Assembly (NCBI GenBank): GCA_016875395.1
Contig: VGRF01000023.1
Location: 1 to 64,000 of the forward strand
From: Deltaproteobacteria bacterium
GTDB lineage: Bacteria; Myxococcota_A; UBA9160; UBA6930
DNA length: 64,000 bases
Direction of reading: 5' to 3'
Positions 2,378 through 47,808 of the stretch are shown in pieces. Each line of letters begins with the position of its first letter. Positions within the stretch are counted from its first letter, which is position 1. A program made the translations under genes and the position numbers. The notes beneath the pieces are model-generated. The model was not told where the DNA came from, did no database searches, and was given only the letters and a program-made list of their open reading frames with translations.

Positions 2378-3409
2378 TTGCAAGTCTTCGCCGCCGTCGA
2401 CGACGTGCGCATGCCGCTCGCGGCGATGCCGGCACACGCGCAGCGCGCGGAGCGATTATGGTTCGACGGGCTGATCGTTCCCGAGGCGGTGTACGACGCG
2501 ATTCCCGCCGCGACCCTCGCCCTCGCGAGCACCAAGCGGCTGCGCGTCGCGACGGGCGTGATCGTCGCGTTCGCGCGCAGCCCGATGCTCGTGGCGCAGG
2601 ATGCCTGGGCGCTCGCTCAGTTATCGGGCGGCCGCTTCTCGCTCGGGCTCGGTCCGCAGGTGAAGGGCAACGTCGAGGGGCGCTTCGGCATGCCGTGGAG
2701 CGCGCCGGCTGCGCGCATGCGCGACTACGTCGGCGCGCTGCGCGCGTGCTTCGAGGCATTCCAAACCGGGAGGCCGCTCGCGTACGCGAGCGCTTCGTAC
2801 TCACTCGCGCGCATGCAGCCGTTCTTCAAGCCCGACGCGCTGCCTCCCGAGCACGCGCGCATCCCGATCTGGCTCGGCGCGATCGGGCCCCTCATGACTC
2901 GCGTCGCAGGCGAAGTCGCGGACTGCGTGATCGCGCATCCCACGAATTCGTCGCCCGCGTATCTGCGCGACGCGATGCGACCGAAGCTCGCGGAGGGCGC
3001 GGGGCGCGCGGGGCGAGAGGCGCGGGAGATCGCGGTGATCGCGAATCCGATGGTGGCGACCGGGGCCGACACGGCTTCCGTCGCGAAGGAGCGCGAGGCC
3101 GCGCGCGAGGTGCTCGCCTTCACGTTCTCGACGCCCGCTTATTGGGGAACGCTCGAGCACCACGGCTGGGGCGGCGTCGGCCGCGCGCTGCTCGAAAGGA
3201 CGCGCGCGAACGAATGGGGTGCGCTGCGCGCGCTCATCTCGGACGAGATGCTCGACGTGCTCGTTCCGAGCGCTGGTTACGGCGAGATCGCCGCGCTGAT
3301 CCGCGCGCGCTACGCGGGCATCGCGGAGGGCATCAGCCTGCGCATGCCGGCGGACCCGGCGCACGATGCCGCGTTCGCTCGAGTCGTGGAGGCTCTGCGG
3401 GGCGCCTGA
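2378..3409 (+). CDS. LLM-class F420-dependent oxidoreductase
   Basis: A 343-residue member of the luciferase-like monooxygenase superfamily (TIM barrel). It resembles the F420-dependent branch with the conserved VIVAFARSPMLVAQDAW segment and a C-terminal region of the same group. The start is a TTG at 2378, nine bases after the preceding stop; a later ATG at 2411 would remove the first beta strand. Such enzymes use reduced or oxidised F420 or FMN on diverse substrates. The position after an SDR and before DUF35 genes suggests a redox step in the same pathway, which is inference. Confidence 0.82.
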   Translation: MQVFAAVDDVRMPLAAMPAHAQRAERLWFDGLIVPEAVYDAIPAATLALASTKRLRVATGVIVAFARSPMLVAQDAWALAQLSGGRFSLGLGPQVKGNVEGRFGMPWSAPAARMRDYVGALRACFEAFQTGRPLAYASASYSLARMQPFFKPDALPPEHARIPIWLGAIGPLMTRVAGEVADCVIAHPTNSSPAYLRDAMRPKLAEGAGRAGREAREIAVIANPMVATGADTASVAKEREAAREVLAFTFSTPAYWGTLEHHGWGGVGRALLERTRANEWGALRALISDEMLDVLVPSAGYGEIAALIRARYAGIAEGISLRMPADPAHDAAFARVVEALRGA

Positions 3410-3519: not shown

Positions 3520-3969
3520 ATGGCGCGTCCCATCGAGCCGGCGCTGACGGCGCCGCACAAGCTCTCGTACACGTACAAGCGCTCGCTCGGTCCGGTGCTC
3601 GGGAGGTTCTTCACGGCGCTGCGCGATCGGCAGATCCTCGGCGTGCGGCGCGCGGACGGCTCGGTGCTGGTGCCGCCGAAGGAGTACGACCCCGAGAGCG
3701 CGGAGGCGCTGACGGAGCTCGTGCCCGTGAAGGAGACGGGCGTCGTGAAGAGCTGGGCGTGGGTGCAGACGCCGCGCAGGCAGCAGCCGCTGCAGCGCCC
3801 CTTCGCCTACGCGCTGATCCAACTCGACGGCGCCTCGACGCCGCTCGTGCACGTGGTCGACGCCGGCAGCGCGAGCGCGATGAAGACCGGCATGCGCGTG
3901 CGCGCGCGCTGGGCCGAGAACCGCGTCGGTGCGATCACCGACATCGCAGCGTTCGTGCCGGAGGCCTGA
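3520..3969 (+). CDS. DUF35 OB-fold protein without zinc-ribbon cysteines
   Basis: A 149-residue protein of the DUF35 family (rubredoxin-like ribbon plus OB-fold). Members partner with thiolase-fold enzymes and bind acyl-CoA. Here the ribbon segment reads ILGVRRADGSVLVPPKEYDPE and the whole protein contains no cysteine, so zinc cannot be bound in the usual way. The OB-fold part (about residues 60-149, with FAYALIQLDGASTPLVHVV) is normal. ATG 3520 follows a strong GGAGGCGAGGA ribosome site. It is followed by a second DUF35 gene and two thiolase-fold genes, which are its likely partners. Confidence 0.85.
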   Translation: MARPIEPALTAPHKLSYTYKRSLGPVLGRFFTALRDRQILGVRRADGSVLVPPKEYDPESAEALTELVPVKETGVVKSWAWVQTPRRQQPLQRPFAYALIQLDGASTPLVHVVDAGSASAMKTGMRVRARWAENRVGAITDIAAFVPEA

Positions 3970-4018
3970 GCAAGCCGCGCAGCGAGGCGAAGCCGAGCGA
4001 AGATCGAACAGTGGCCTC
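3970..4018 (+). repeat. Intergenic repeat family R, copy 2
   Basis: This 49-bp element begins directly after a stop codon. Its last 18 bases, AGATCGAACAGTGGCCTC, are identical to those at 58687-58704, and the rest is a close match. It may belong to a 5' leader or be a dispersed repeat. Confidence 0.55.
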
Positions 4019-4071
4019 CGCGTTGCCTGACGCCGGGGCCATCCATGAACGGACGAGGTGCGAGACAAGAC

Positions 4072-4584
4072 ATGGCGGACACGAAAGCAACCGATCCGAA
4101 CGCGCCCGTCGAGGTGATGCTGGCGCCGGTCGAGCTCGACTACACGTACTCCGCGGGCCAGAGCGCGTCGCGCTTCCTGCGCGCGATCGCGCAGGGCAAG
4201 CTGTTAGGGCAGCGCTGCCCGGTCGACGGGCGCGTCTACTTTCCGACGCGCGGCTCGTGCCCGCAGCACGGCGTCGTGATCGACGGAGAGCCGGTCGAGC
4301 TGAAGGACGCCGGCACGCTCGTCACGTACTCGATCGTGCGCGTCCCGAGCCAGAACATCCCGCTGCAGCTGCCGTACATCAGCGCGCAGATCCAGCTCGA
4401 CGGTGCGAACACCGTCCTCATGCACCTCGTGAACTGCAAGCTCGAGGACGTGCACATGGGCATGCGCGTGCGCGCGGTGTGGAAGCCGCGCGAGGAGTGG
4501 ACGACGTCCGTCGGCAACATCCTCTACTTCGAGCCAAACGGTGAGCCCGACGCACCCTACGACTCGTACAAGGAGCACATCTGA
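4072..4584 (+). CDS. DUF35 (Zn-ribbon/OB-fold) protein, partner of thiolase-fold enzyme
   Basis: A 170-residue DUF35 protein. The ribbon reads RCPVDG...GSCPQHG, so two of the four usual cysteines remain and the others are Asp and His (C-x2-D and C-x2-H). The OB-fold follows, with LPYISAQIQLDGANTVLMHLV. I prefer ATG 4072, with GAGGTG upstream, over ATG 4045. Its stop overlaps the start of the next gene (TGATG), so the two are translationally coupled. The known Ltp2-ChsH2 and SAL-type steroid aldolases need a DUF35 partner; the same arrangement is inferred here. Confidence 0.88.
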   Translation: MADTKATDPNAPVEVMLAPVELDYTYSAGQSASRFLRAIAQGKLLGQRCPVDGRVYFPTRGSCPQHGVVIDGEPVELKDAGTLVTYSIVRVPSQNIPLQLPYISAQIQLDGANTVLMHLVNCKLEDVHMGMRVRAVWKPREEWTTSVGNILYFEPNGEPDAPYDSYKEHI

Positions 4585-5639
4585 TGCGCGACGTGGCGGT
4601 CGTCGGGTTCGTGCAGTCGCCGTCGATGCGGCGCGAGCCCGATCGCAACGAGGTCGAGATCCTGATCCCGGTGATGGCCGAGCTGAAGAAGAGCGTCGGC
4701 ATCACGAACGATCAGCTCGACTTCGTGTGCTCGGGCTCGAGTGATTACTTGGCGGGCCAGTCGTTCGCGTTCATCGCGGGCCTCGACGCCGTCGGCGCGT
4801 GGCCGCCCGTCTCCGAATCGCACGTCGAGATGGACGGCGCGTGGGCGCTGTACGAGGCGTGGGTGAAGATGCAGATGGGCTACGCCGACATCGCGATGGT
4901 GTACGGCTTCGGCAAGCCCTCGATGGGCGACCTGCCGCTGACGATGGCGCTGCAGCTCGACCCCTACTCGCTGATGCCGCTCTGGCCCGACGCCGTTTCG
5001 CTCGCCGCGCTGCAGGCGCGCGTGCTGCTCGAAGGCGGGCACGTCTCCGAGCGCGAGATGGCGGAGCGCGCGGTGCGCGATCGCAAGAACGCGAAGGCGA
5101 ATCCGTTCGCGCAGGTGAAGGGCGACTTCGAGGTGGAGAAGCTGCTCGCGGCGCCGCATCACGTCGCGCCGCTGCGCAAGCACGACTGCGCGCCGATCAG
5201 CGACGGCGCCGCGGGGGTCATCCTCGCGGCCGGCGACAAGGCGCGCGCGCTCTGCAAGCGGCCCGCGTGGATCAAGGGCATCTCGCACATCCTCGAGCCG
5301 ATGGAGCTGGGCGTGCGCGACCTGACCAGGTCGCGTTCCACCGAGATCGCCGCGCAGAAGGCCGGCGTGTGGCGCGACAAGCTGGACACCGCCGAGCTAT
5401 CGGCGCCGTTCACGCACCAAGAGATCTTGGTGGAGCGTGCGCTCGGGCTCACCGCGAAGACGAACATCAATCCGTCGGGCGGTGCGCTCGCGGGCAATCC
5501 GATGATGGCCGTCGGCCTCGCGCGCATCGGCGAGGCGGCGCAGCAGATCTGGCGCGGCAGCGCGGACCGCAGCGTCGCGCACGCGACCTCGGGGCCGTGC
5601 CTGCAGCAGAACCTCGTGTGCGTGCTGGAGGGCAACTGA
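4584..5639 (+). CDS. Thiolase-fold protein lacking nucleophilic Cys (Ltp2/SAL-like, probable aldolase)
   Basis: A 351-residue SCP2-thiolase-like protein. Where thiolases have VENACASG this protein reads VEMDGAWAL, placing Gly85 at the nucleophile position. The GHP motif is NPMMAVG, with Asn305 replacing His. Classical thiolysis therefore looks impossible. Steroid side-chain aldolases such as Ltp2 show the same kind of loss and work with a DUF35 partner, and a DUF35 gene immediately precedes and overlaps this one. The family is clear; retro-aldol activity is inference. It forms a tandem pair with the next gene. Confidence 0.85.
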   Translation: MRDVAVVGFVQSPSMRREPDRNEVEILIPVMAELKKSVGITNDQLDFVCSGSSDYLAGQSFAFIAGLDAVGAWPPVSESHVEMDGAWALYEAWVKMQMGYADIAMVYGFGKPSMGDLPLTMALQLDPYSLMPLWPDAVSLAALQARVLLEGGHVSEREMAERAVRDRKNAKANPFAQVKGDFEVEKLLAAPHHVAPLRKHDCAPISDGAAGVILAAGDKARALCKRPAWIKGISHILEPMELGVRDLTRSRSTEIAAQKAGVWRDKLDTAELSAPFTHQEILVERALGLTAKTNINPSGGALAGNPMMAVGLARIGEAAQQIWRGSADRSVAHATSGPCLQQNLVCVLEGN

Positions 5640-5640
5640 G

Positions 5641-6798
5641 ATGGCCGAGCTGTGCGGAGTCATCGGCATCGGGCAGACGAAGTACGCGCCCTCGCGCAAA
5701 GACCTCTCGATGCCGGGGTTGTTACGGGAAGCGGCGGAGCGCGCGCTCGAAGACGCGGAGCTCACCTGGAAGGACATCGACGCCGTCGTGATCGGGAAGG
5801 CGCCCGACATGTTCGAGGGCGTGATGATGCCCGAGCTGTTCCTCGCCGAAGCGATCGGCGGCGCCTACAAGCCGATGCTGCGCGTGCACACCGCCGGCAG
5901 CGTGGGCGGCTCGACGGGCATCGTGGCCGCGAGCCTCGTGCAGAGCGGCGTACACGATCGCGTGCTCACCGTGGCGTACGAGAAGCAGAGCGAGTCGAAC
6001 GCCACCTGGGCGCTCTCGATCGGGCTGCCGTTCAGCGTGGCGACGGTCGCAGGCGCCGGTGGCTACTTCGCGCCGCTCGTCCGCGGCTACATGCGCCGCA
6101 GCGGCGCGCCCGAGGACACGGGCATTCGCGTCGCGGTGAAGGATCGCGAGAACGCGCTGAAGAACCCGTACGCGCATCTTCAGATCGAGGACATCAGCTT
6201 CGAGAAGGTGGCGAGCTCGCCGATGCTGTGGGACCCGATCCGCTACCTCGAGACGTGTCCGAGCTCCGACGGCGCGTGCGCGATGGTGATGGCGCGCGAG
6301 AAGCTCGCCGAGCGCAGCTCGAAGAGAGTGGCGTGGGTGCACGCGACCGAGATGCGCAGCGAGCCCACCTCCTTCAGCGGCCGCGACCAAGTGATGCCGC
6401 GCGCGACGCTCGACAACGCGAAGTCGCTCTACAAGAAGGCGCGCATCACGAACCCGCGCAAAGAGATCGACTGCGCGGAGATCTACGTGCCGTTCTCGTG
6501 GTTCGAGCCGATGTGGATGGAGGGCATGCTGATCGCCGAGCCGAATCAGGGCTGGCGCATGACCTACGACGGCGCGACGGCGCTCTCGGGCGACTTCCCC
6601 GTGAACATGAGCGGCGGCGTGCTCAGCTCGAACCCGATCGGCGCCTCGGGCCTGATCCGCTTCGCCGAAGCCGCTCTGCAAGTGCGCGGCATGGCGGGCG
6701 CGCACCAAGTCGACGGGGCGAAGAAGGCGCTCGGACACGCCTACGGCGGCGGCTCGCAGTACTTCAGCACCTGGATCGTGGGCAGCGCGAAGCCGTAG
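5641..6798 (+). CDS. Thiolase-fold protein lacking nucleophilic Cys (Ltp2/SAL-like, probable aldolase), second paralogue
   Basis: A 385-residue thiolase-fold protein. The nucleophile region reads RVHTAGSVGGS, with Gly86 in place of Cys, and the GHP motif reads LSSNPIGASG, with Asn331 in place of His. A tyrosine-rich stretch, GHAYGGGSQYFS, near residue 368 falls where Ltp2-type aldolases place catalytic tyrosines, although exact equivalence needs an alignment. It starts one base after the stop of its paralogue. Together with two DUF35 genes upstream it could form two aldolase-DUF35 pairs or one heteromeric complex. Confidence 0.87.
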   Translation: MAELCGVIGIGQTKYAPSRKDLSMPGLLREAAERALEDAELTWKDIDAVVIGKAPDMFEGVMMPELFLAEAIGGAYKPMLRVHTAGSVGGSTGIVAASLVQSGVHDRVLTVAYEKQSESNATWALSIGLPFSVATVAGAGGYFAPLVRGYMRRSGAPEDTGIRVAVKDRENALKNPYAHLQIEDISFEKVASSPMLWDPIRYLETCPSSDGACAMVMAREKLAERSSKRVAWVHATEMRSEPTSFSGRDQVMPRATLDNAKSLYKKARITNPRKEIDCAEIYVPFSWFEPMWMEGMLIAEPNQGWRMTYDGATALSGDFPVNMSGGVLSSNPIGASGLIRFAEAALQVRGMAGAHQVDGAKKALGHAYGGGSQYFSTWIVGSAKP

Positions 6799-6901: not shown

Positions 6902-8452
6902 ATGGCAGACCTCGGATTCTGGAAGTTCGCGGCGAGCGATCCGAACGCGCTCGCGCTCGTCACGCCGTCGGAGCAGCTGCTCACGCGCGGCGAGCTGGCG
7001 GCGCGCGGCAATCAGGTGGCGCGCGGGCTCGCGGCGCTCGGGCTCGGCACGGGCGACGTGGTGGCGGTCGTCGTCGAGAACGGCGCGGCCTTCATCGAGC
7101 TGTATCTCGCGTGCTTCCAGACCGGGCTCTACTTGGTGCCCATCAACCATCACTTATCAGGGCCCGAGATCGCGTACATCGTGGAGAACTCCGAGGCGAA
7201 GGCGTTCGTCGGCAGCGCGCGCTTCGCGGACGCGATCTCGAAGGCGGCGACCGAGTTCGCGTTGCCCGCCGCGAATCGCTTCGCGCTCGGCCGGCTCGAA
7301 GGCTTCCGCCCGTACGAAGAGCTCAGCGCGGGGCAGTCGGCCGCGCTGCCGGAGAAGCGCACCGCAGGCGCGATCATGAACTACACGTCGGGCACGACGG
7401 GCCGGCCGAAGGGCGTGCGGCGTCCCCTGACAGGGATGGACCCCGACCTGATCGGCGCGCTCTTCACCGGCTTCCAGCAGATGTTCGGCGTGAAGCCCGA
7501 GGACGGAAACGTCCACATCACCGGCTCGCCGCTCTATCACACCGCGGTGCTGATGTTCGCATCGGCGGCGATGCATCTCGGCCACAGCGTCGTGCTCATG
7601 GACAAGTGGACGCCCGAGGAGATGCTGCGGCTCATCGCGAAGTACCGCGTCACCACGAGCCACATGGTGCCGACGCAGTTCCACCGCATGCTGCAGCTGC
7701 CCGCCGACGTGCGCGCGAAGTACGACTGCTCCTCGACGCGCGCGATGGTGCACGCGGCGGCGCCGTGCCCGCCCGACGTGAAGCAGAAGATGCTCGCGTG
7801 GTGGGGCGACTCGATCTGGGAGTACTACGCCGCGACGGAAGGCGGCGGCACGATCGTCTCGCCGCAGGAGTGGCGGCGAAAGCCGGGCACCGTCGGCAAG
7901 GCGTGGGCGAACGCCGAAGTGAAGATCTTCGACGACGACGGGAACGAGTGCGCGACGGGCGCGACCGGCACGGTCTACATGCTGCGCGGTCAAGCCGACT
8001 TCGAGTACTTCAAGGACAAGGACAAGACGGAGAAGGCGCGGCGCGGCCGCTACTTCACCGTGGGCGACATCGGCTACCTCGACGGCGACGGCTACCTGTT
8101 CCTGTGCGACCGCAAGAACGACATGATCATCTCGGGCGGCGTGAACATCTATCCCGCCGAGATCGAGTCCGTGTTCCTCACGCACCCGAGCGTCGGCGAC
8201 GTCGCGGTGTTCGGCATTCCGCACGAGGAGTGGGGCGAGGAGGTGAAGGCGGTCGTCGAGCCCGCGCACGGCGTGGTCCCCGGCGATGCGCTCTCGCGCG
8301 AGATTTTCGACTTCCTGCGCGACAGGCTCGCGAAGTACAAGACGCCGAAGAGCATCGACTACGTGACGGAGATGCCGCGCGATCCGAACGGCAAGCTCTA
8401 CAAGCGCAAGCTGCGCGACCCGTACTGGGCCGGCCGCACGCGCAACATCTGA
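6902..8452 (+). CDS. Acyl-CoA synthetase (AMP-binding)
   Basis: A 516-residue ANL-superfamily ligase, full length. It should adenylate a carboxylic acid and form its CoA thioester. The P-loop-like motif reads YTSGTTGRPKGVRR, the A5 region is YYAATEGGG, the hinge is YLCDRKNDMIISGGVNIYPAEIE, and the catalytic lysine is in PNGKLYKRKLR near the C terminus. ATG 6902 follows GAGGGGAAGAA. It lies about 100 bp after the aldolase-like pair, in the same direction, and probably activates a pathway acid. Chain length or ring specificity cannot be told from motifs. Confidence 0.92.
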   Translation: MADLGFWKFAASDPNALALVTPSEQLLTRGELAARGNQVARGLAALGLGTGDVVAVVVENGAAFIELYLACFQTGLYLVPINHHLSGPEIAYIVENSEAKAFVGSARFADAISKAATEFALPAANRFALGRLEGFRPYEELSAGQSAALPEKRTAGAIMNYTSGTTGRPKGVRRPLTGMDPDLIGALFTGFQQMFGVKPEDGNVHITGSPLYHTAVLMFASAAMHLGHSVVLMDKWTPEEMLRLIAKYRVTTSHMVPTQFHRMLQLPADVRAKYDCSSTRAMVHAAAPCPPDVKQKMLAWWGDSIWEYYAATEGGGTIVSPQEWRRKPGTVGKAWANAEVKIFDDDGNECATGATGTVYMLRGQADFEYFKDKDKTEKARRGRYFTVGDIGYLDGDGYLFLCDRKNDMIISGGVNIYPAEIESVFLTHPSVGDVAVFGIPHEEWGEEVKAVVEPAHGVVPGDALSREIFDFLRDRLAKYKTPKSIDYVTEMPRDPNGKLYKRKLRDPYWAGRTRNI

Positions 8453-9355: not shown

Positions 9356-10159
9356 TCACACGCCGCGAAACACCGGCTTCCTCTTCTCCAAGAACGCGCG
9401 CGGTCCTTCGGCGGCGTCCTGCGACGCCATCACCTGCATCCCGTACTTCTGCTCGATCGCGAACGCATCCTCTTCGCGCATCGCTTCCGTTTCGCGCAGC
9501 GTGGCGAGAATGCCCTTCACGGCGAGGGGACCGTTCTCGGCGATGCGCTGCGCGATCTGCTTCGCCTTCGCGAGCGCCTGGCCGTCGGCGACGACGTGGT
9601 TCACGAGACCGAGCTCGTAGGCGCGCCGCGCGGGCAGGTCCTCGCCCGCGAGCAACATCTCCGCCGCGACCGCGTAGCCGATCTGCCGGCGCAGGCGCAC
9701 GGCGGAGCCCGCCATCGGGAAGAGGCCGCGCTGCACTTCGGTCACGCCGAACTTCGCGCTCTCGCCCGCGACGCGAATGTCCGTGCCCTGCAGAATCTCG
9801 GTGCCGCCCGCGCGCGCGAAACCTTCGGCGGCGAGGATCACCGGCTTGTTAGGGCGATACGTCTTCAGCCACGCGCCGTAGATCACGTGCGGCTCCTTCT
9901 TCACGCGCTCCATGTACGGGTTGTCGCTGACGCCGCCGCGCATCTTCCCGATCTCGGCGAGATCCATGCCCGCGCAGAACGTGTCGCCGCGGCCGGTGAG
10001 GATCGCGACGCGCAGCTCCGGATCGCTGTCGAGCTGCACCCACGCGTCGTAGAGCCGGCACATCACCTCGCAGTTGACGGCGTTCTTCTTCTCGGGCCGA
10101 TTCAGAGTGACCACGAGGACGTGCTCTTCGCGGTCGACGAGGACGACGGGATCCGGCAT
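9356..10159 (-). CDS. Enoyl-CoA hydratase/isomerase (crotonase family)
   Basis: A 267-residue crotonase. Typical elements are LNRPEKKNAV at the N terminus, the oxyanion-hole segments RGDTFCAGMDL and AEGFARAGGTEI, and the C-terminal AFLEKRKPVFRG. A glutamate in TEVQRGLFP lies where crotonases have a catalytic acid. The start at 10159 gives MPDPVVLVDREE and is preceded by AAGGAG. It stands alone on the minus strand, convergent with the small CWC gene and divergent from the PEP-CTERM gene. Hydratase rather than isomerase activity is not proven. Confidence 0.9.
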   Translation of the reverse strand: MPDPVVLVDREEHVLVVTLNRPEKKNAVNCEVMCRLYDAWVQLDSDPELRVAILTGRGDTFCAGMDLAEIGKMRGGVSDNPYMERVKKEPHVIYGAWLKTYRPNKPVILAAEGFARAGGTEILQGTDIRVAGESAKFGVTEVQRGLFPMAGSAVRLRRQIGYAVAAEMLLAGEDLPARRAYELGLVNHVVADGQALAKAKQIAQRIAENGPLAVKGILATLRETEAMREEDAFAIEQKYGMQVMASQDAAEGPRAFLEKRKPVFRGV

Positions 10160-10463
10160 CAGGCGCTCCTTCGGGGAACGCGGAGGGAATGACGGAGGGC
10201 GAGCCCCGTCAAGGCAGCGCCCGGTCTTCGCACGCGACGGGCTTGCGCGCTGCCCAGAATGGCTGGGTATGCGGCGTTTTCTGCGAAGATTCGCCCCGAG
10301 GGGGTGCAGGGGAGGCGCAGCTCCCGCTCTTGGTGAGCCAGAACACAGAGAATGCGAGTCCCCGATGAGTGGTTTTGGGGGCACTTACTCGCGGGAACGG
10401 TTTATTGTGCGCCCCGTCGGGGATTTTCCCGACCTAACGCTGACGATGCTGGGAGAGGAACAG
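10160..10463. other. Divergent intergenic region, enoyl-CoA hydratase / PEP-CTERM gene
   Basis: No gene is seen here. The region must hold promoters for both flanking genes. A small hairpin, GTCGGG-N6-CCCGAC, lies at about 10417-10435 in the leader of the PEP-CTERM gene, and the stretch 10372-10410 is the least GC-rich part. I could not find a convincing sigma-70 or sigma-54 box. Confidence 0.4.
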
Positions 10464-11180
10464 ATGACGCAATTGAGGCTTTTGGTGTTGTCGCTTGCGC
10501 TGTTCGCGGCGCCGGCGCTCGCCGCGCCGGTTTCGGTGCAGGTCGACCATATCGGTCAGTCCTGGTCGCTCGACTACAACGGCATCATGGACGTGAACGG
10601 TGTGCCGACCGTCCTCTCGGGTTTGACGGCGACGATCGACTTCCAAGTGGTCGATTTCTTCTACGACGCGTCGTCGGACGCCTCGGGGCTCGTCATCGCC
10701 CTCGATGTCTACAACACGACGGATCCGACCATCTGGCAACGCGGTGCGGTGTCGGGCATCGGGTTCGACACGGACCCGAACGTGATTCGGAGCTGGAGTT
10801 CGGTGAGCGGGTACTACAACCGGCTCGCGTTCAACACGACGCTCCCGACTGGCGCCGGGTTTCAGGTCGAGATCTGCCTCAGTACAAAGAGGTCGAGCTG
10901 CACCGGGCCGTGGGCGGCCGGGAATCAGGTGGGCACGAACGTCGTGCAGTCCGCGGTTGTGTTCCTCGCGTTCCAAGGCGACGTCACTGGCACTGGAGTG
11001 ACGCTCGACAACTTCGGCATCCGCTACGCGGACCTGCAGTCGGCGTTCCACGGCGTTCAGGCCGGTCTCGGCCTCGGTGTGCCGGTGGCCCCGATTCCGG
11101 AGCCGGCGTCGATCGCGGCCTTCGGCCTCGGCGCTCTGCTGACGGGCGCTTCGCTGCGCCGCCGGATGCGCGCGAACTAG
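10464..11180 (+). CDS. PEP-CTERM sorting domain protein, secreted
   Basis: A 238-residue exported protein. It has a signal peptide (residues 1 to about 20, ending LAAPALAAP), a beta-rich middle with no family I recognise, and a C-terminal PEP-CTERM tail: PIPEPAS, a hydrophobic helix, then RRRMR. Such tails are cut by an exosortase, which is not in this window, and the proteins are commonly linked to exopolysaccharide. ATG 10464 has an excellent GGGAGAGGAACAG site. Codon use is less GC-biased than in the neighbouring metabolic genes. A strong hairpin follows the gene. Confidence 0.85.
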   Translation: MTQLRLLVLSLALFAAPALAAPVSVQVDHIGQSWSLDYNGIMDVNGVPTVLSGLTATIDFQVVDFFYDASSDASGLVIALDVYNTTDPTIWQRGAVSGIGFDTDPNVIRSWSSVSGYYNRLAFNTTLPTGAGFQVEICLSTKRSSCTGPWAAGNQVGTNVVQSAVVFLAFQGDVTGTGVTLDNFGIRYADLQSAFHGVQAGLGLGVPVAPIPEPASIAAFGLGALLTGASLRRRMRAN

Positions 11181-11302: not shown

Positions 11303-12478
<1,176 letters not shown>

Positions 12479-12574
12479 GTCCGGGCGAGCGCGGTAGATC
12501 GAGGTGCGGATGCAGCTGGCGGCTGCGCCGCAGCTGATTCGTCCAGGTGACTTCGCAGAGTTTCGGGAGATGAG

Positions 12575-13681
12575 ATGGACTTCTCGTACAACGACGACCA
12601 GAAGGCGATCCGCGAGCTCGCTCGCAAGATGCTCGAGGAGATGGCGACCCACGAGCGCCTCAAGGAAGTGAAGGCGACGCCGGAGCGCGTCGACCGCACG
12701 CTTTGGCGCGAGCTCGCCAAGGCGAACTTGCTGGGCGTCGCGATCGCAGAGCAGCACGGCGGCAATGGCGGTTGGCTCACAGAGCTCGCGCTGCTGATGG
12801 AGGAGGTCGGCCGCGCGGTGGCGCCGGTGCCCGTGTACCCGACGCTCGTGCTCGGCGCTCTGCCGCTCGCCGAGTTCGGCAGCGACGCGTTGAAGGCGAA
12901 ATGGCTGCCGCGCATCGCCTCAGGCGACGCGATCCTCGCGCACGCGATCGTCGACGATCGCCCGATCGACGTCGTCACCGCGCGCCGCGACGGCGATGCC
13001 TACGTGCTGAACGGCACGCGCTCTCTCGTGCAGGCCGCGCACGTGGCCGACGCGATCTTCGTGCCCGCCCGCACCGACGCGGGCCCCGCACTGTTCGTGG
13101 TCGACGCGAAGGTGAAAGGCGTGCACCTCGAGCGCGTCGAGACCACCGACGAGCACCTGCGCCCGCACTTTCACGCCAACGACGTGCGCGTCAGCGCCGC
13201 GGACGTGGTGGGCGCGATCGGACACGGGGATGCGATCGCGGCGTGGACGCAGCAGCGCGCGACGCTCGCGCTGTGCGCGATGCAGGTCGGCGTCGCCGAG
13301 CGCGCGCTGCAGATCACCGCTCGCTATGCGACCGAGCGCCAGCAGTTCGATCGCCCGATCGGCAGCTTCCAGGCCGTACACACGCGCGCCGGCGACGCCT
13401 TCGTCGACGTGCAGGCGATGAAGCTCACGATGCTGCGCGCGCTTCACCTGCTCGAGCAGCGTGAGGACGCGACCGAGAACCTCATCATCGCGAAGTACTG
13501 GGCCGCCGACGGCGGGGGCCGCGTCGCCTACGCCGCGCAGCACCTCCACGGCGGCATCGGCGTCGACGTCGACTACCCCATCCATCGCTACTACCTGTGG
13601 GCGCGGCAGATTGGGCTTCATCTTGGGAGTGGCGCGGAGCAGGTGGAGTTATTGGGGGAGCGGTTCGCCCGCGCTCGCTGA
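12575..13681 (+). CDS. Acyl-CoA dehydrogenase, small-type partner
   Basis: A 368-residue acyl-CoA dehydrogenase homologue with a less conserved middle domain. The C-terminal half is standard, with RQQFDRPIGSFQAV and AQHLHGGIGVDVDYPIHRYY. It lies 96 bases after the other dehydrogenase gene in the same direction. In known heteromeric enzymes one subunit binds FAD with the other and may lack the base. It ends just before a long palindrome that probably closes the transcript. Confidence 0.9.
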   Translation: MDFSYNDDQKAIRELARKMLEEMATHERLKEVKATPERVDRTLWRELAKANLLGVAIAEQHGGNGGWLTELALLMEEVGRAVAPVPVYPTLVLGALPLAEFGSDALKAKWLPRIASGDAILAHAIVDDRPIDVVTARRDGDAYVLNGTRSLVQAAHVADAIFVPARTDAGPALFVVDAKVKGVHLERVETTDEHLRPHFHANDVRVSAADVVGAIGHGDAIAAWTQQRATLALCAMQVGVAERALQITARYATERQQFDRPIGSFQAVHTRAGDAFVDVQAMKLTMLRALHLLEQREDATENLIIAKYWAADGGGRVAYAAQHLHGGIGVDVDYPIHRYYLWARQIGLHLGSGAEQVELLGERFARAR

Positions 13682-42868: not shown

Positions 42869-44122
42869 ATGTCGCACGCGCCGCCGCCGCCGTTTCGTCC
42901 GCCGCCGATCCGCGCGTTCAATGCCGCCGGCCGCTTCGCGGCACGCCTCGGCGTGCGCGGCTTCGCGTTCGACGAAGACGTGGTGCTGTCGGCCGCGCGC
43001 GCGCAGGCGAAGCTCGACGACTTCGGGCCCGCCAGCTTTCTCCCCGGGCTTCGTACGCTGATCGCGTCGCTCGAGCGCGACGCCAAGCTGAACGCGTTCG
43101 GCCGGTACTTCGCCAGGCGCCAGCTCGTCGAGCTGTTGGTGACGCGGCTGCGCCTCGTTCACTGGCGCACGTGCAACCCGGAAGTCGAGAAGCAAGAGAT
43201 CGTCCGCCCGCTGTTCGTGCTCGGGCTCCCGCGCACCGGCACGACTCTGCTCTACAGCCTCCTCGCGCTCGATCCCGCGCATCGCTCGCCGCTCTCGTGG
43301 GAGGTGGACGATCCGTGTCCCCCACCCGAGGGCGCGAGCTACGAGAGTGATCCTCGCATCGACCAGAGCGCATGGCGCTTCAGGCAGCTGGAGCAGCTCG
43401 CTCCGGGCATCCAGGCGATCCATCCCGTGGGCGCGTCGCTGCCGCAGGAGTGCATCGTCATCACGGCGTCGGAGTTCATGTCGATCCGCTTCGAGATGAC
43501 CTTCGACGTGGCGAGTTATCAGGACTGGCTGCTCGAAGCCGACATGACGGGTTGTTATGCCTGGCACAAGCGCTTCCTGCAGCACCTCCAGTCGCGCTAC
43601 GCGAAGGAGCGTTGGGTGCTGAAGTCGCCCGGCCACCTCGGCGCGATCGACGCGCTGCTCGCCGCCTACCCCGACGCGCGCATCGTGCAGACGCACCGCG
43701 ATCCGCGGCGCGTCGTGCCCTCGGTGTCGTCGCTGGAGTGGACGCTGCGCGGCGTCGCGAGCGACGCGCAGGATCCGCGCGCGCTCGGCCGGCAGCAGCT
43801 GCGCGCTTGGTCGCGCACGCTGCGCGCTGGCATGGAGGCGCGGGCGCGGAACGCGGCGCGCGAGGGCCAGTTCGCGGACCTGCACTTCCGCGAGATCGCG
43901 CGCGATCCGATCGCGTGCGTGCGGCGCATCTACGAGCGCTTCGGGTTCACGTACACGCCCGCGTTCGAGCAGCGCATGAGCGAGTACGTCGCTGCGCACC
44001 CGCGCGAAGAGCACGGCGCGCACCGCTACACGCTCGAAGGATTCGGTCTGCACGCGGGCGAAGTCGACGCCGCGTTTGCCGACTACTGCGCGCGCTTCGA
44101 GGTGCAGCGCGAAGAGGCGTAG
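42869..44122 (+). CDS. Sulfotransferase family protein
   Basis: A 417-residue sulfotransferase (Sulfotransfer_3 type). The 5'-phosphosulfate loop is FVLGLPRTGTTLLYSLL (about 115-131), and the 3'-phosphate region includes RWVLKSPGHLGAIDALLAAYPDARIVQTHRDP with the conserved Arg/Ser context. It would transfer sulfate from PAPS to a small molecule. The N-terminal Pro-rich stretch may be extra. It is convergent with an SDR gene. A sulfatase-like gene lies at the other end of the window, but no functional link is shown. Confidence 0.9.
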   Translation: MSHAPPPPFRPPPIRAFNAAGRFAARLGVRGFAFDEDVVLSAARAQAKLDDFGPASFLPGLRTLIASLERDAKLNAFGRYFARRQLVELLVTRLRLVHWRTCNPEVEKQEIVRPLFVLGLPRTGTTLLYSLLALDPAHRSPLSWEVDDPCPPPEGASYESDPRIDQSAWRFRQLEQLAPGIQAIHPVGASLPQECIVITASEFMSIRFEMTFDVASYQDWLLEADMTGCYAWHKRFLQHLQSRYAKERWVLKSPGHLGAIDALLAAYPDARIVQTHRDPRRVVPSVSSLEWTLRGVASDAQDPRALGRQQLRAWSRTLRAGMEARARNAAREGQFADLHFREIARDPIACVRRIYERFGFTYTPAFEQRMSEYVAAHPREEHGAHRYTLEGFGLHAGEVDAAFADYCARFEVQREEA

Positions 44123-45233: not shown

Positions 45234-46649
45234 ATGCCCGGCATCGTCTCGTTCGGCGCCTACATCCCACCGACGCGCCTCGGTTTTTCGGTGATGGCGG
45301 GCCGCGCTCCGAAGGATGGGGGCCCCGAACGCTCCGTCGCGTGGAACGACGAGGACGCCGTCACGATGGGCGTCACCGCGGGCGTGAACTGCCTGCGCGG
45401 CTTCGATCGCGCGAGCGTGGATGCGCTGCTCTTCGCGTCGACCACCTACGCGTTCAAGGAGAAACAGGCTGCGGCGCTCGTCGCGAAGGCGCTCGACCTG
45501 CGCCGCGACGTGCGCACCACCGATGTCTCGGGCTCCCTGCGCGCGGGCACCGACGCGCTGCACGCTGCCTTCGACGCGGTCGCCGCCGGCAGCGCGCGCC
45601 GCGTGCTCGTGATCGCGAGCGATGCGCGGCTCGGTGCGCCGGGCTCGGGGCTCGAACAGAATTTTGGCGACGGTGCGGCCGCGTTCCTGATCGGCGGCGC
45701 GGATGCGATCGCCACGTTCGAGGGCGCGTACGCAATCTCGGACGAGATCGTCGACACGTGGCGCAGCGAGGGCGACCCCTTCGTGCACTCGTGGGAAGAG
45801 CGCTTCGTCGTGCAGGAGGGCTACACGCCCGGCGTCACGGAAGTGGTGCGCGGCCTGTGCGCGAAGCTCGGCGCAAGGGCCGGCGACTTCTCGAAGGTCG
45901 CGCTGTTCGGCCCCGATGCGCGCAGTCATCAGGGCGCCGCGCGCGCGCTGAAGCTCGACGCGGCGAAGCTCGTCGACCCGCTGTTCGGAAAGCTCGGCAA
46001 TGCCGGCGTCGCGTTTGCGCCGCTGTTGTTATGCGCGGCGCTCGAGAGCGCGAAGCAGGGCGAGCGCGTGCTGCTCGCCGCGTACGGCGACGGCGGCGAA
46101 GCGCTGGCGTTCGCGGTGACGGATCACATCGGCAAGCTCGAGCCGCGCCGCGGCGTCGCCTGGCACCTCGCGCGCCGCCGCGCCGTCGCGAGCTACGACC
46201 GCTATCGCGCGGCGCGTGGCCTCGACACCAAGGAGTACGCCGCGGGCCGCGATCAAGGCCTCAGCGCCACGATCCACTTCCGGGAACGAGAGGAAGACGT
46301 CGCGTTCAAGGGCCAGAAGTGCAACCGCTGCGGCGGCGTGCAGTTCCCGATCCAGCGCATCTGCGAGCGCTGCTTCGCGAAGGACGACTTCGAGCTGGTG
46401 CGCCTCTCGGATCGCATCGGCACGGTGCTGACGTACACGTTCGACTTCTTCTTCCCCACGCCGGATCCGCCGACGGTCGTGACCGTGACGGAGATCGACG
46501 GTGCGCGCGTGCACCTCCAGCTCGTGAACGTCAAGCCGGAGCAGGTGCGTCTCGGCCTGCCCGTCGAGTTCGAGTTCCGCCGCGTCCACCAAGGCGGCGG
46601 CAGACCTAATTACTACTGGAAGGGCGTGCCCCTTCCGGAGGGAAACTGA
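45234..46649 (+). CDS. HMG-CoA-synthase-fold protein fused to DUF35
   Basis: A 471-residue fusion. The first part (about 1-330) has the HMG-CoA synthase/KAS III fold, with GAYIPPTRL and FGDGAAAFLIG. The nucleophile region reads VSGSLRAGTDAL, placing Leu102 where ACKAGT has Cys. The second part is a complete DUF35 unit: zinc ribbon Cys363, 366, 377 and 380, then an OB-fold. Archaeal HMG-CoA synthase, thiolase and DUF35 form a complex that channels acetoacetyl-CoA; here two of those parts are one chain and the thiolase gene follows by one base. Loss of Cys argues against ordinary synthase activity. Confidence 0.86.
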   Translation: MPGIVSFGAYIPPTRLGFSVMAGRAPKDGGPERSVAWNDEDAVTMGVTAGVNCLRGFDRASVDALLFASTTYAFKEKQAAALVAKALDLRRDVRTTDVSGSLRAGTDALHAAFDAVAAGSARRVLVIASDARLGAPGSGLEQNFGDGAAAFLIGGADAIATFEGAYAISDEIVDTWRSEGDPFVHSWEERFVVQEGYTPGVTEVVRGLCAKLGARAGDFSKVALFGPDARSHQGAARALKLDAAKLVDPLFGKLGNAGVAFAPLLLCAALESAKQGERVLLAAYGDGGEALAFAVTDHIGKLEPRRGVAWHLARRRAVASYDRYRAARGLDTKEYAAGRDQGLSATIHFREREEDVAFKGQKCNRCGGVQFPIQRICERCFAKDDFELVRLSDRIGTVLTYTFDFFFPTPDPPTVVTVTEIDGARVHLQLVNVKPEQVRLGLPVEFEFRRVHQGGGRPNYYWKGVPLPEGN

Positions 46650-46650
46650 G

Positions 46651-47808
46651 ATGCGCATCGACGCGCTTCGCGACAAAGCCGCCGTCGTCGGCGTCGGCTG
46701 CTGCCAGTTTGGCGAGAACTGGGACAAGGCGCCGAGCGACATGATCGTCGACGCGGCGTACGAGGCCTACGCCGACGCCGGCATCGAGAACCCGCAGCGC
46801 CAGATCGACGCGGTGTTCACCGGCTCGATTTACTCGAACAAGGGCCCGCTCGAGTGCAGCGACGCGCTGAAGCTGTTCGGCAAGCCCGTGACGATGGTCA
46901 GCAATTACTGCGCGACGGGCACCGACGCGTTCCGCATGGCGGTGATGACTATCGCGGCGGGCGTGTACGACACGGTGCTCGTGGTCGGATACGACAAGCC
47001 CAAGGACCGCGGCGTCTCCGGCCCGAGCGTGATGATGGATCGCGTGCGCGATCTGCCGCAGACGCCCGCGGGCTGGTTCTCGCTGTGCGCGTCGACCTAC
47101 TTCGCGAAGTACGGCGCGGGCCGCGAGGAGCTCGCGAAGATCGCGGTGAAGAACCACAAGAACGGCTGCCTCGCGCCCAACAGCTTTCTGAAGCGCGAGA
47201 TCACGGTCGAGGAAGCGCTGAACGGGCGCATGATCTCGTGGCCCTTCGGGCTGTACGACTGCGCGGCGCAAACGGATGGCGCCGCCGCCGCGATCGTGAC
47301 GCGCGCGGACCTTGCGAAGAGCTACGGGCCGGATCGCATTCTCGTGAAGGGCGTGAGCATCATGTCGGGCCCGAATCCTCAGAAAGATCCGGGCAACGAC
47401 TTTCTGTCGTGGAAGCCGACGGGCTGGGCCGCCGCGGAGGTCTACGCGCAGGCCGGCATCACCAGGCCGTTCGACGAGATCGACGTCGCCCAGGTGCACG
47501 ACTGCTTCACGCTCACCGAGCTGCTCACGTACGAGGATCTCGGCTTCATCGAGAAGGGCTCCGCCAAGGAGCACATCGCGAGCGGCACGTTCGAGTTGTC
47601 AGGCGAGCTGCCCGTGAACACCGATGGCGGCCTCAAGGCCTTCGGTCACCCGACCGGCGCGACAGGCGTGCGCATGATCTACGAGAACGTGCAGCAGCTG
47701 CGCGGCAAAGCGGGCAAGCGCCAGGTGAAGGACGCGCGCGTCGCGCTCAGCCACAACATCGGCGGTCACCCGACCGCGTGCGGGATCGCGATCATCGCCA
47801 AGGAGTAG
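46651..47808 (+). CDS. SCP2-type thiolase with intact catalytic residues
   Basis: A 385-residue thiolase of the archaeal/SCP2 type. It keeps the nucleophile Cys87 (VSNYCATGTDA), His333 in KAFGHPTGATG and the HNIGGHP motif, so thiolysis or condensation is possible. This contrasts with the two Cys-less homologues at 4584 and 5641. ATG 46651 is one base after the stop of the HMG-CoA-synthase-fold/DUF35 gene, and the two products are likely partners. Two enoyl-CoA hydratases and a dehydrogenase follow. Confidence 0.92.
   Translation: MRIDALRDKAAVVGVGCCQFGENWDKAPSDMIVDAAYEAYADAGIENPQRQIDAVFTGSIYSNKGPLECSDALKLFGKPVTMVSNYCATGTDAFRMAVMTIAAGVYDTVLVVGYDKPKDRGVSGPSVMMDRVRDLPQTPAGWFSLCASTYFAKYGAGREELAKIAVKNHKNGCLAPNSFLKREITVEEALNGRMISWPFGLYDCAAQTDGAAAAIVTRADLAKSYGPDRILVKGVSIMSGPNPQKDPGNDFLSWKPTGWAAAEVYAQAGITRPFDEIDVAQVHDCFTLTELLTYEDLGFIEKGSAKEHIASGTFELSGELPVNTDGGLKAFGHPTGATGVRMIYENVQQLRGKAGKRQVKDARVALSHNIGGHPTACGIAIIAKE

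Follow-up and report, generated by a model that had tools for sequence, protein, structure and literature searches.

A four-gene locus encoding two DUF35 subunits and two thiolase-fold proteins is found at positions 3520-6798 of a 64,000-nucleotide stretch of contig VGRF01000023.1 from a Deltaproteobacteria bacterium (assembly GCA_016875395.1); the whole of this stretch is referred to below as the window. All four genes are complete within the interval:

3520-3969, + strand: D1, 149 amino acid residues (aa); DUF35 subunit without zinc ligands; Pfam OB_ChsH2_C, 41 bits
4072-4584, + strand: D2, 170 aa; DUF35 subunit with a degenerate zinc ribbon (C49-D52-C63-H66); Pfam OB_ChsH2_C, 56 bits, plus zf-ChsH2
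4584-5639, + strand: T1, assigned as Ltp4, 351 aa; thiolase fold; NCBIfam PRK07937, 526 bits (curated cut-off 419); AlphaFold model with a predicted local distance difference test score (pLDDT) of 89.8
5641-6798, + strand: T2, assigned as Ltp3, 385 aa; thiolase fold; NCBIfam PRK08313, 646 bits (curated cut-off 514); AlphaFold model with a pLDDT of 89.0

D1 and D2 both exceed the 27-bit cut-off of OB_ChsH2_C, which is the sole Pfam match on D1 and is accompanied on D2 by the zf-ChsH2 zinc ribbon; T1 and T2 match thiolase domains. An alternative in-frame ATG start for D2 is possible at position 4045. Since the stop codon of D2 overlaps the start codon of T1 in the sequence TGATG, and T1 and T2 lie one nucleotide apart, translational coupling is suggested across the tightly packed D2-T1-T2 genes.

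A preliminary description of this DNA had reported two DUF35 proteins followed by two thiolase-fold proteins devoid of the nucleophilic Cys, and Pfam, the residues themselves and the structural models bear this out; every residue of that description which was checked proved correct. The position of the nucleophile is occupied by Gly85 in T1 and Gly86 in T2, and the His of the GHP motif is replaced by Asn (N305 and N331, respectively). A scan of named genomes for the T1 family revealed at least 589 relatives; the conservation counts given here rest on the best 80, the loci of which span Myxococcota, Actinomycetota, and Pseudomonadota. Among these orthologues the nucleophile position reads Gly in 52 and Ala in 29 of the Ltp4 sequences and Gly in all 75 Ltp3 sequences, while Asn stands in the GHP motif of 75/81 and 75/75, such that the substitutions first noted in the window are conserved across three phyla and neither protein possesses the Cys and His that characterize SCP2-type thiolases. 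Chance or misaligned loss of the Cys is ruled out by this invariance over approximately 80 orthologues.

The identity of the four genes emerges from comparison with Rhodococcus sp. OK519 (locus L083), where an opposite-strand gene matching TIGR03559, "F420_Rv3520c" (498 bits; cut-off 335), a double DUF35 protein, T1, and T2 are arranged in succession, with a gene for a steroid 3-ketoacyl-coenzyme A (CoA) thiolase further on past T2. Because this order equals the published order Rv3520c, Rv3521, ltp4 (Rv3522), and ltp3 (Rv3523) (PMC6429209), and because the family models agree, T1 is assigned as Ltp4, T2 as Ltp3, and D1 plus D2 as the counterpart of Rv3521; the assignment to Rv3521, Rv3522, and Rv3523 is based upon gene order and family models. 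The locus is an orthologue of the Rv3521-ltp4-ltp3 operon and not an undescribed pair.

According to papers that cite Wilbrink et al. (2012), Ltp3 and Ltp4 are aldol-lyases, and C24-branched sterol side chains require both genes where straight ones do not (PMC6273163, PMC6593523, PMC4761994), a requirement known for R. rhodochrous (PMC6273163, PMC6593523). A review terms Ltp3-Ltp4 a heteromeric aldol-lyase acting on the C24-C25 bond (PMC6678751), and in M. neoaurum knockout of ltp3 or ltp4 leaves the other aldolytic route, at C22-C23, running (PMC10398937). The literature search yielded no paper that names a DUF35 subunit of Ltp3-Ltp4 or reports the structure of the pair; nor was a PDB chain close to Ltp3 or Ltp4 found, the best match showing about 30% identity.

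The order D1-D2-T1-T2 is preserved in 78/78 of those loci, among the 80, that are complete on the DUF35 side, the closest named ones belonging to Myxococcota and to metagenome-assembled genomes labeled "Deltaproteobacteria." In 30 loci D1 and D2 are fused into one protein of approximately 310-330 aa. When the fused and split states are placed on the T1+T2 tree nine changes are counted, at least seven of which are forced by well-supported branches; one locus (L067) was scored as split merely through a contig cut, so that the true number is somewhat less than nine and the forced minimum may drop by up to two. On this tree the fusion state has evidently switched several times independently. The class to which the window belongs is represented by 90 genomes, of which 67 contain both Ltp3 and Ltp4 and 18 contain neither; the five discordant genomes are explained, as far as they were checked, by contig ends (G054, G055, and G082) or broken copies (G012 and G018). 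It is chiefly the repeated D1-D2 fusion and the strict co-occurrence of Ltp3 and Ltp4 that indicate one machine rather than two.

We assign a probability of roughly 0.78 to the reading that the locus is orthologous to Rv3521-ltp4-ltp3 and that its four products make up a single heteromeric retro-aldolase, dependent upon DUF35 and active in sterol side-chain degradation. The identity, order, and co-occurrence of the genes, the conservation of residues, and the folds were established directly; that ltp3 and ltp4 are genetically required is taken from the literature. The preliminary description, in proposing a thiolase-derived aldolase dependent upon DUF35, had the right idea, the pair matching the known Ltp3-Ltp4 aldol-lyase; of the two arrangements that it allowed, one heteromer is favored by the fusions, the co-occurrence, and the residues of Ltp4, and two separate aldolases are not.

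Two further observations concern the distribution of these genes. Additional, lower-scoring Ltp4-Ltp3 copies (a second or third) are present in six genomes (G006, G030, G038, G052, G067, and G071), and are perhaps paralogues for other side chains. Beside one actinobacterial ltp4-ltp3 locus (L049, 58-2426) lies a P450-like protein, CYP125-like by eye, which together with another conserved open reading frame (ORF) recurs in 18 and 13 loci, respectively; neither has an NCBIfam match at the threshold used.

The catalytic residues of two thiolase-fold aldolases are known: TcLtp2 (6ok1) uses Tyr294 of its YDHF motif as base and Tyr344 as acid, and in Sal these roles fall to Tyr302 and Cys304 (PMC12329534). 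Both tyrosines were located in the 6ok1 sequence. The position of Tyr294 is filled in Ltp3 by Tyr282, which forms part of an invariant YVPFSW (75/75), so that T2 retains the Tyr but reads YVPF against YDHF, whereas Ltp4 sequences have His, Tyr, Ser, or Cys there, T1 reading SAPF. At the position of the Ltp2 His and Sal Cys304, every Ltp3 sequence has Pro, as have almost all those of Ltp4. The stretch that should hold Tyr344 contains no Tyr in either T2 (residues 320-340) or T1 (residues 296-314); the MAFFT alignment is uncertain by a few columns here, and the conclusion uses the absence of any Tyr from the stretch. The alignment with Ltp2 that the preliminary description had proposed as a check gives, in consequence, a divided answer, Tyr294 being kept in T2 alone and Tyr344 in neither protein. 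Judged by residue conservation at the Ltp2 and Sal positions, Ltp3 evidently keeps the base Tyr without either of the known acids and is presumed to be the catalytic subunit, with Ltp4 presumed to be its inert partner. Two further residues of Ltp3, His83 (75/75) and Tyr368 (74/75), are conserved, and either might, at a guess, serve as the catalytic acid.

The DUF35 subunits differ from a four-Cys zinc ribbon in unequal measure. D1 contains no Cys, its zinc ligands are missing from every orthologue (77 sequences), and a conserved PPxEYDP takes the place of the second zinc knuckle. D2 has Cys at positions 49, 63, and 122, giving C49xxD52 and C63xxH66, in agreement with the CxxD/CxxH and the Cys-free partner described earlier. 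Across 80 D2 sequences the ligand quartet is CCCC in 30, CCCD in 23, CDCH in 5, and lost in 22; CDCH belongs to the window's own clade, and the quartet is lost in rhodococci, the group in which the need for ltp3 and ltp4 was shown. Because the D2 site is lost in 22/80 sequences, rhodococci included, and the D1 site throughout, zinc is to all appearances dispensable for the Ltp3-Ltp4 system. The same counts leave unsupported the suggestion of a division between a structural and a CoA-binding DUF35 subunit. An exploratory comparison, uncorrected for phylogeny, revealed no alignment column of T1 or T2 that cleanly tracks the loss of zinc ligands from D2. According to the sequence comparison, DUF35 doublets of the Rv3521 type are part of the Ltp3-Ltp4 enzyme.

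The AlphaFold models of T1 and T2 are full thiolase folds, and DUF35-partnered thiolases (6esq, 7pyt) head their fold-match lists. The best match is 6esq for T2 (Z 53.1 over 374 residues) and 6et9 for T1 (Z 44.5 over 339 residues). Ltp2 (6ok1) aligns with T2 at Z 45.3 (root-mean-square deviation 3.0, 369 residues) and with T1 at Z 36.1 (2.4, 326 residues), and Sal (9myr) at Z 45.2 and 37.1, respectively. The best structural matches, namely the archaeal thiolase/3-hydroxy-3-methylglutaryl-CoA synthase/DUF35 complex (6esq) and the benzoylsuccinyl-CoA thiolase BbsAB (7pxp), share with our proteins a thiolase fold partnered by DUF35; unlike T1 and T2, they are true thiolases with the catalytic Cys intact.

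With the Ltp3-Ltp4 aldol-lyase of R. rhodochrous and Mycobacterium (Rv3523/Rv3522 with Rv3521) the locus has in common the subfamilies, the gene order, the DUF35 doublet, and nearby steroid genes; it differs in that the DUF35 domains, fused in Rhodococcus, are two separate genes in the window, that D2 carries a CDCH quartet where Rhodococcus has none, and that the host is of a Myxococcota-like lineage. Ltp2-ChsH2 (M. tuberculosis Rv3540c/Rv3542c; TcLtp2) likewise has a thiolase fold, no nucleophilic Cys, a DUF35 partner, and a Tyr at the Tyr294 position, as T2 has, but the window has two different thiolase-fold genes and no hydratase domain fused to DUF35. Sal-Shy of Comamonas testosteroni (9myr) resembles the locus in the Cys-to-Gly change, the retained base Tyr, and an altered DUF35 zinc finger; Sal is, however, homodimeric, and the acid Cys304 of its YDCY is Pro in T2.

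From these comparisons we infer the stoichiometry, the choice of catalytic subunit, and the substrate in this organism. One copy each of Ltp3 and Ltp4 would pair as a thiolase-fold dimer at the center, with D1 and D2, two dissimilar DUF35 subunits, on its flanks; this would be the alpha-beta-beta-alpha layout of the Sal-DUF35 complex, in which each outer side bears one DUF35 (PMC12329534). The enzyme probably acts on a C24-branched sterol side chain, carried as its CoA ester and bearing at C24 a tertiary hydroxyl, which would arise by hydration of the C24-branched enoyl-CoA. No ketone can be made from such an alcohol by oxidation; this excludes thiolysis and calls for an aldolase, that is, a retro-aldol cleavage. 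Tyr282 of Ltp3 would deprotonate the beta-hydroxyl, after which the C-C bond would break, and Ltp4, having lost the catalytic residues, probably shapes the steroid pocket, much as ChsH2 does for ChsH1 in a pair where one protomer is non-catalytic and gives room to the steroid (PMC11321319). More tentatively, and at slightly less than even odds, such a four-chain, pseudo-symmetric aldolase may possess a third kind of thiolase-fold aldolase site, in which the base Tyr is kept, the proton donor is neither Tyr344 nor Cys304 (Ltp3 His83, Ltp3 Tyr368, or a residue of Ltp4 being candidates), and Ltp4 is an obligate pseudo-enzyme.

The genes on either side of the locus, as judged from their family matches, fit a role in sterol side-chain degradation:

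165-1376, + strand: FadA5-like steroid 3-ketoacyl-CoA thiolase (PRK07850); NCBIfam equivalog, 553 bits (cut-off 515)
1463-2368, + strand: short-chain dehydrogenase/reductase, candidate beta-hydroxyacyl-CoA dehydrogenase; NCBIfam PRK07791, 341 bits (under the cut-off of 373)
2378-3409, + strand: F420-dependent oxidoreductase of the luciferase-like monooxygenase (LLM) class (TIGR03617); NCBIfam, 310 bits (cut-off 278)
6902-8452, + strand: acyl-CoA synthetase (FadD4 / PRK12406-like); NCBIfam best match 499 bits, under cut-off
9356-10384, - strand: EchA19-like enoyl-CoA hydratase; PRK07799, 352 bits (cut-off 316); EchA19, 346 bits (cut-off 400)
11303-13681, + strand: two tandem acyl-CoA dehydrogenases; NCBIfam acyl-CoA dehydrogenase models, under cut-off

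Relatives of the acyl-CoA synthetase are found near ltp4-ltp3 in many loci. Elsewhere in the same genome an Ltp2-type aldolase (PRK07855; 600 bits, cut-off 469) is encoded close to a ChsH2-like ORF of 327 residues with a DUF35 domain at its C-terminal end (L122, G000 C30, 225-1391 and 2944-3927); this aldolase reads YDAF against the YDHF of TcLtp2 and keeps AYIHG. FadD3 is also present (730 bits; cut-off 657), and tracks Ltp4 across the window's class (62/7/6/15; Fisher p ~1e-7). A further DUF35 and thiolase pair lies at 46398-47808 of the window (PRK06157, 415 bits; cut-off 403), and the genome as a whole has a large set of such domains, with 17 DUF35 and 19 Thiolase_C_1 matches. Further along the same catabolic stretch of the window are a sulfotransferase (42869-44122) and a cytochrome P450 (54048-55286), and an ORF at 10074-11180 ends in PEPASIAAFGLGALLTGASLRRR, which resembles a PEP-CTERM sorting signal.

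Several points weigh against a single heteromeric sterol aldolase. The LLM gene upstream belongs to TIGR03617 and not to TIGR03559, and Ltp2's second Tyr and Sal's Cys are both missing from T1 and T2, leaving Ltp3 without a known proton donor. In addition, the best KstD-like and HsaC-like matches in this genome reach 369 bits (PRK12835; cut-off 837) and 199 bits (cut-off 450), and because both are under cut-off ring degradation is not established by its genes. It is here that another natural substrate for the same heteromeric aldolase, for instance another branched isoprenoid acyl-CoA, gains some ground, the many further DUF35-thiolase pairs of the genome pointing the same way; yet the steroid thiolase and EchA19-like genes adjoin the locus, the genome has an Ltp2-type aldolase, and its FadD3 is above cut-off and follows Ltp4 across the class, and we consider such a substrate unlikely, if still worth bearing in mind.

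Two homomeric aldolases acting at different steps, in which Ltp3 and Ltp4 would each have a DUF35 of their own, would match the two-plus-two gene content and the precedent of Sal, a homologue of Ltp2 in which two identical protomers carry one DUF35 each (PMC12329534). This is quite improbable, given that Ltp3 and Ltp4 are strictly one-to-one in occurrence and order, that D1 and D2 have been fused repeatedly, that every known catalytic residue is missing from Ltp4, and that ltp3 and ltp4 are both reported to be essential for the same substrates (PMC6273163, PMC6593523). Non-enzymatic lipid transfer is suggested by the name "lipid-transfer protein" that NCBIfam gives to PRK07937; however, the name was inherited from SCP2-thiolase, T1 and T2 have no SCP2 domain, both adopt the full thiolase fold, and the catalytic Tyr of Ltp3 is invariant, which makes this reading very improbable indeed.

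Ltp3 and Ltp4 are known through genetics in industrially used actinobacteria, and their genes lie within the tuberculosis cholesterol cluster; mycobacteria and rhodococci use this little-studied enzyme on the branched side chains of plant sterols. The comparison points to the catalytic subunit, to the DUF35 doublet as part of the enzyme, to the dispensability of zinc, and to the want of a known proton donor. What appears to be new is modest, namely the asymmetry of the subunits, the DUF35 doublet, and the lack of both known catalytic acids; its value is that subunit roles, and the question of what donates the proton, become open to experiment. The presence of the system in Myxococcota-like bacteria, mostly uncultured, widens the range of known phytosterol degraders.

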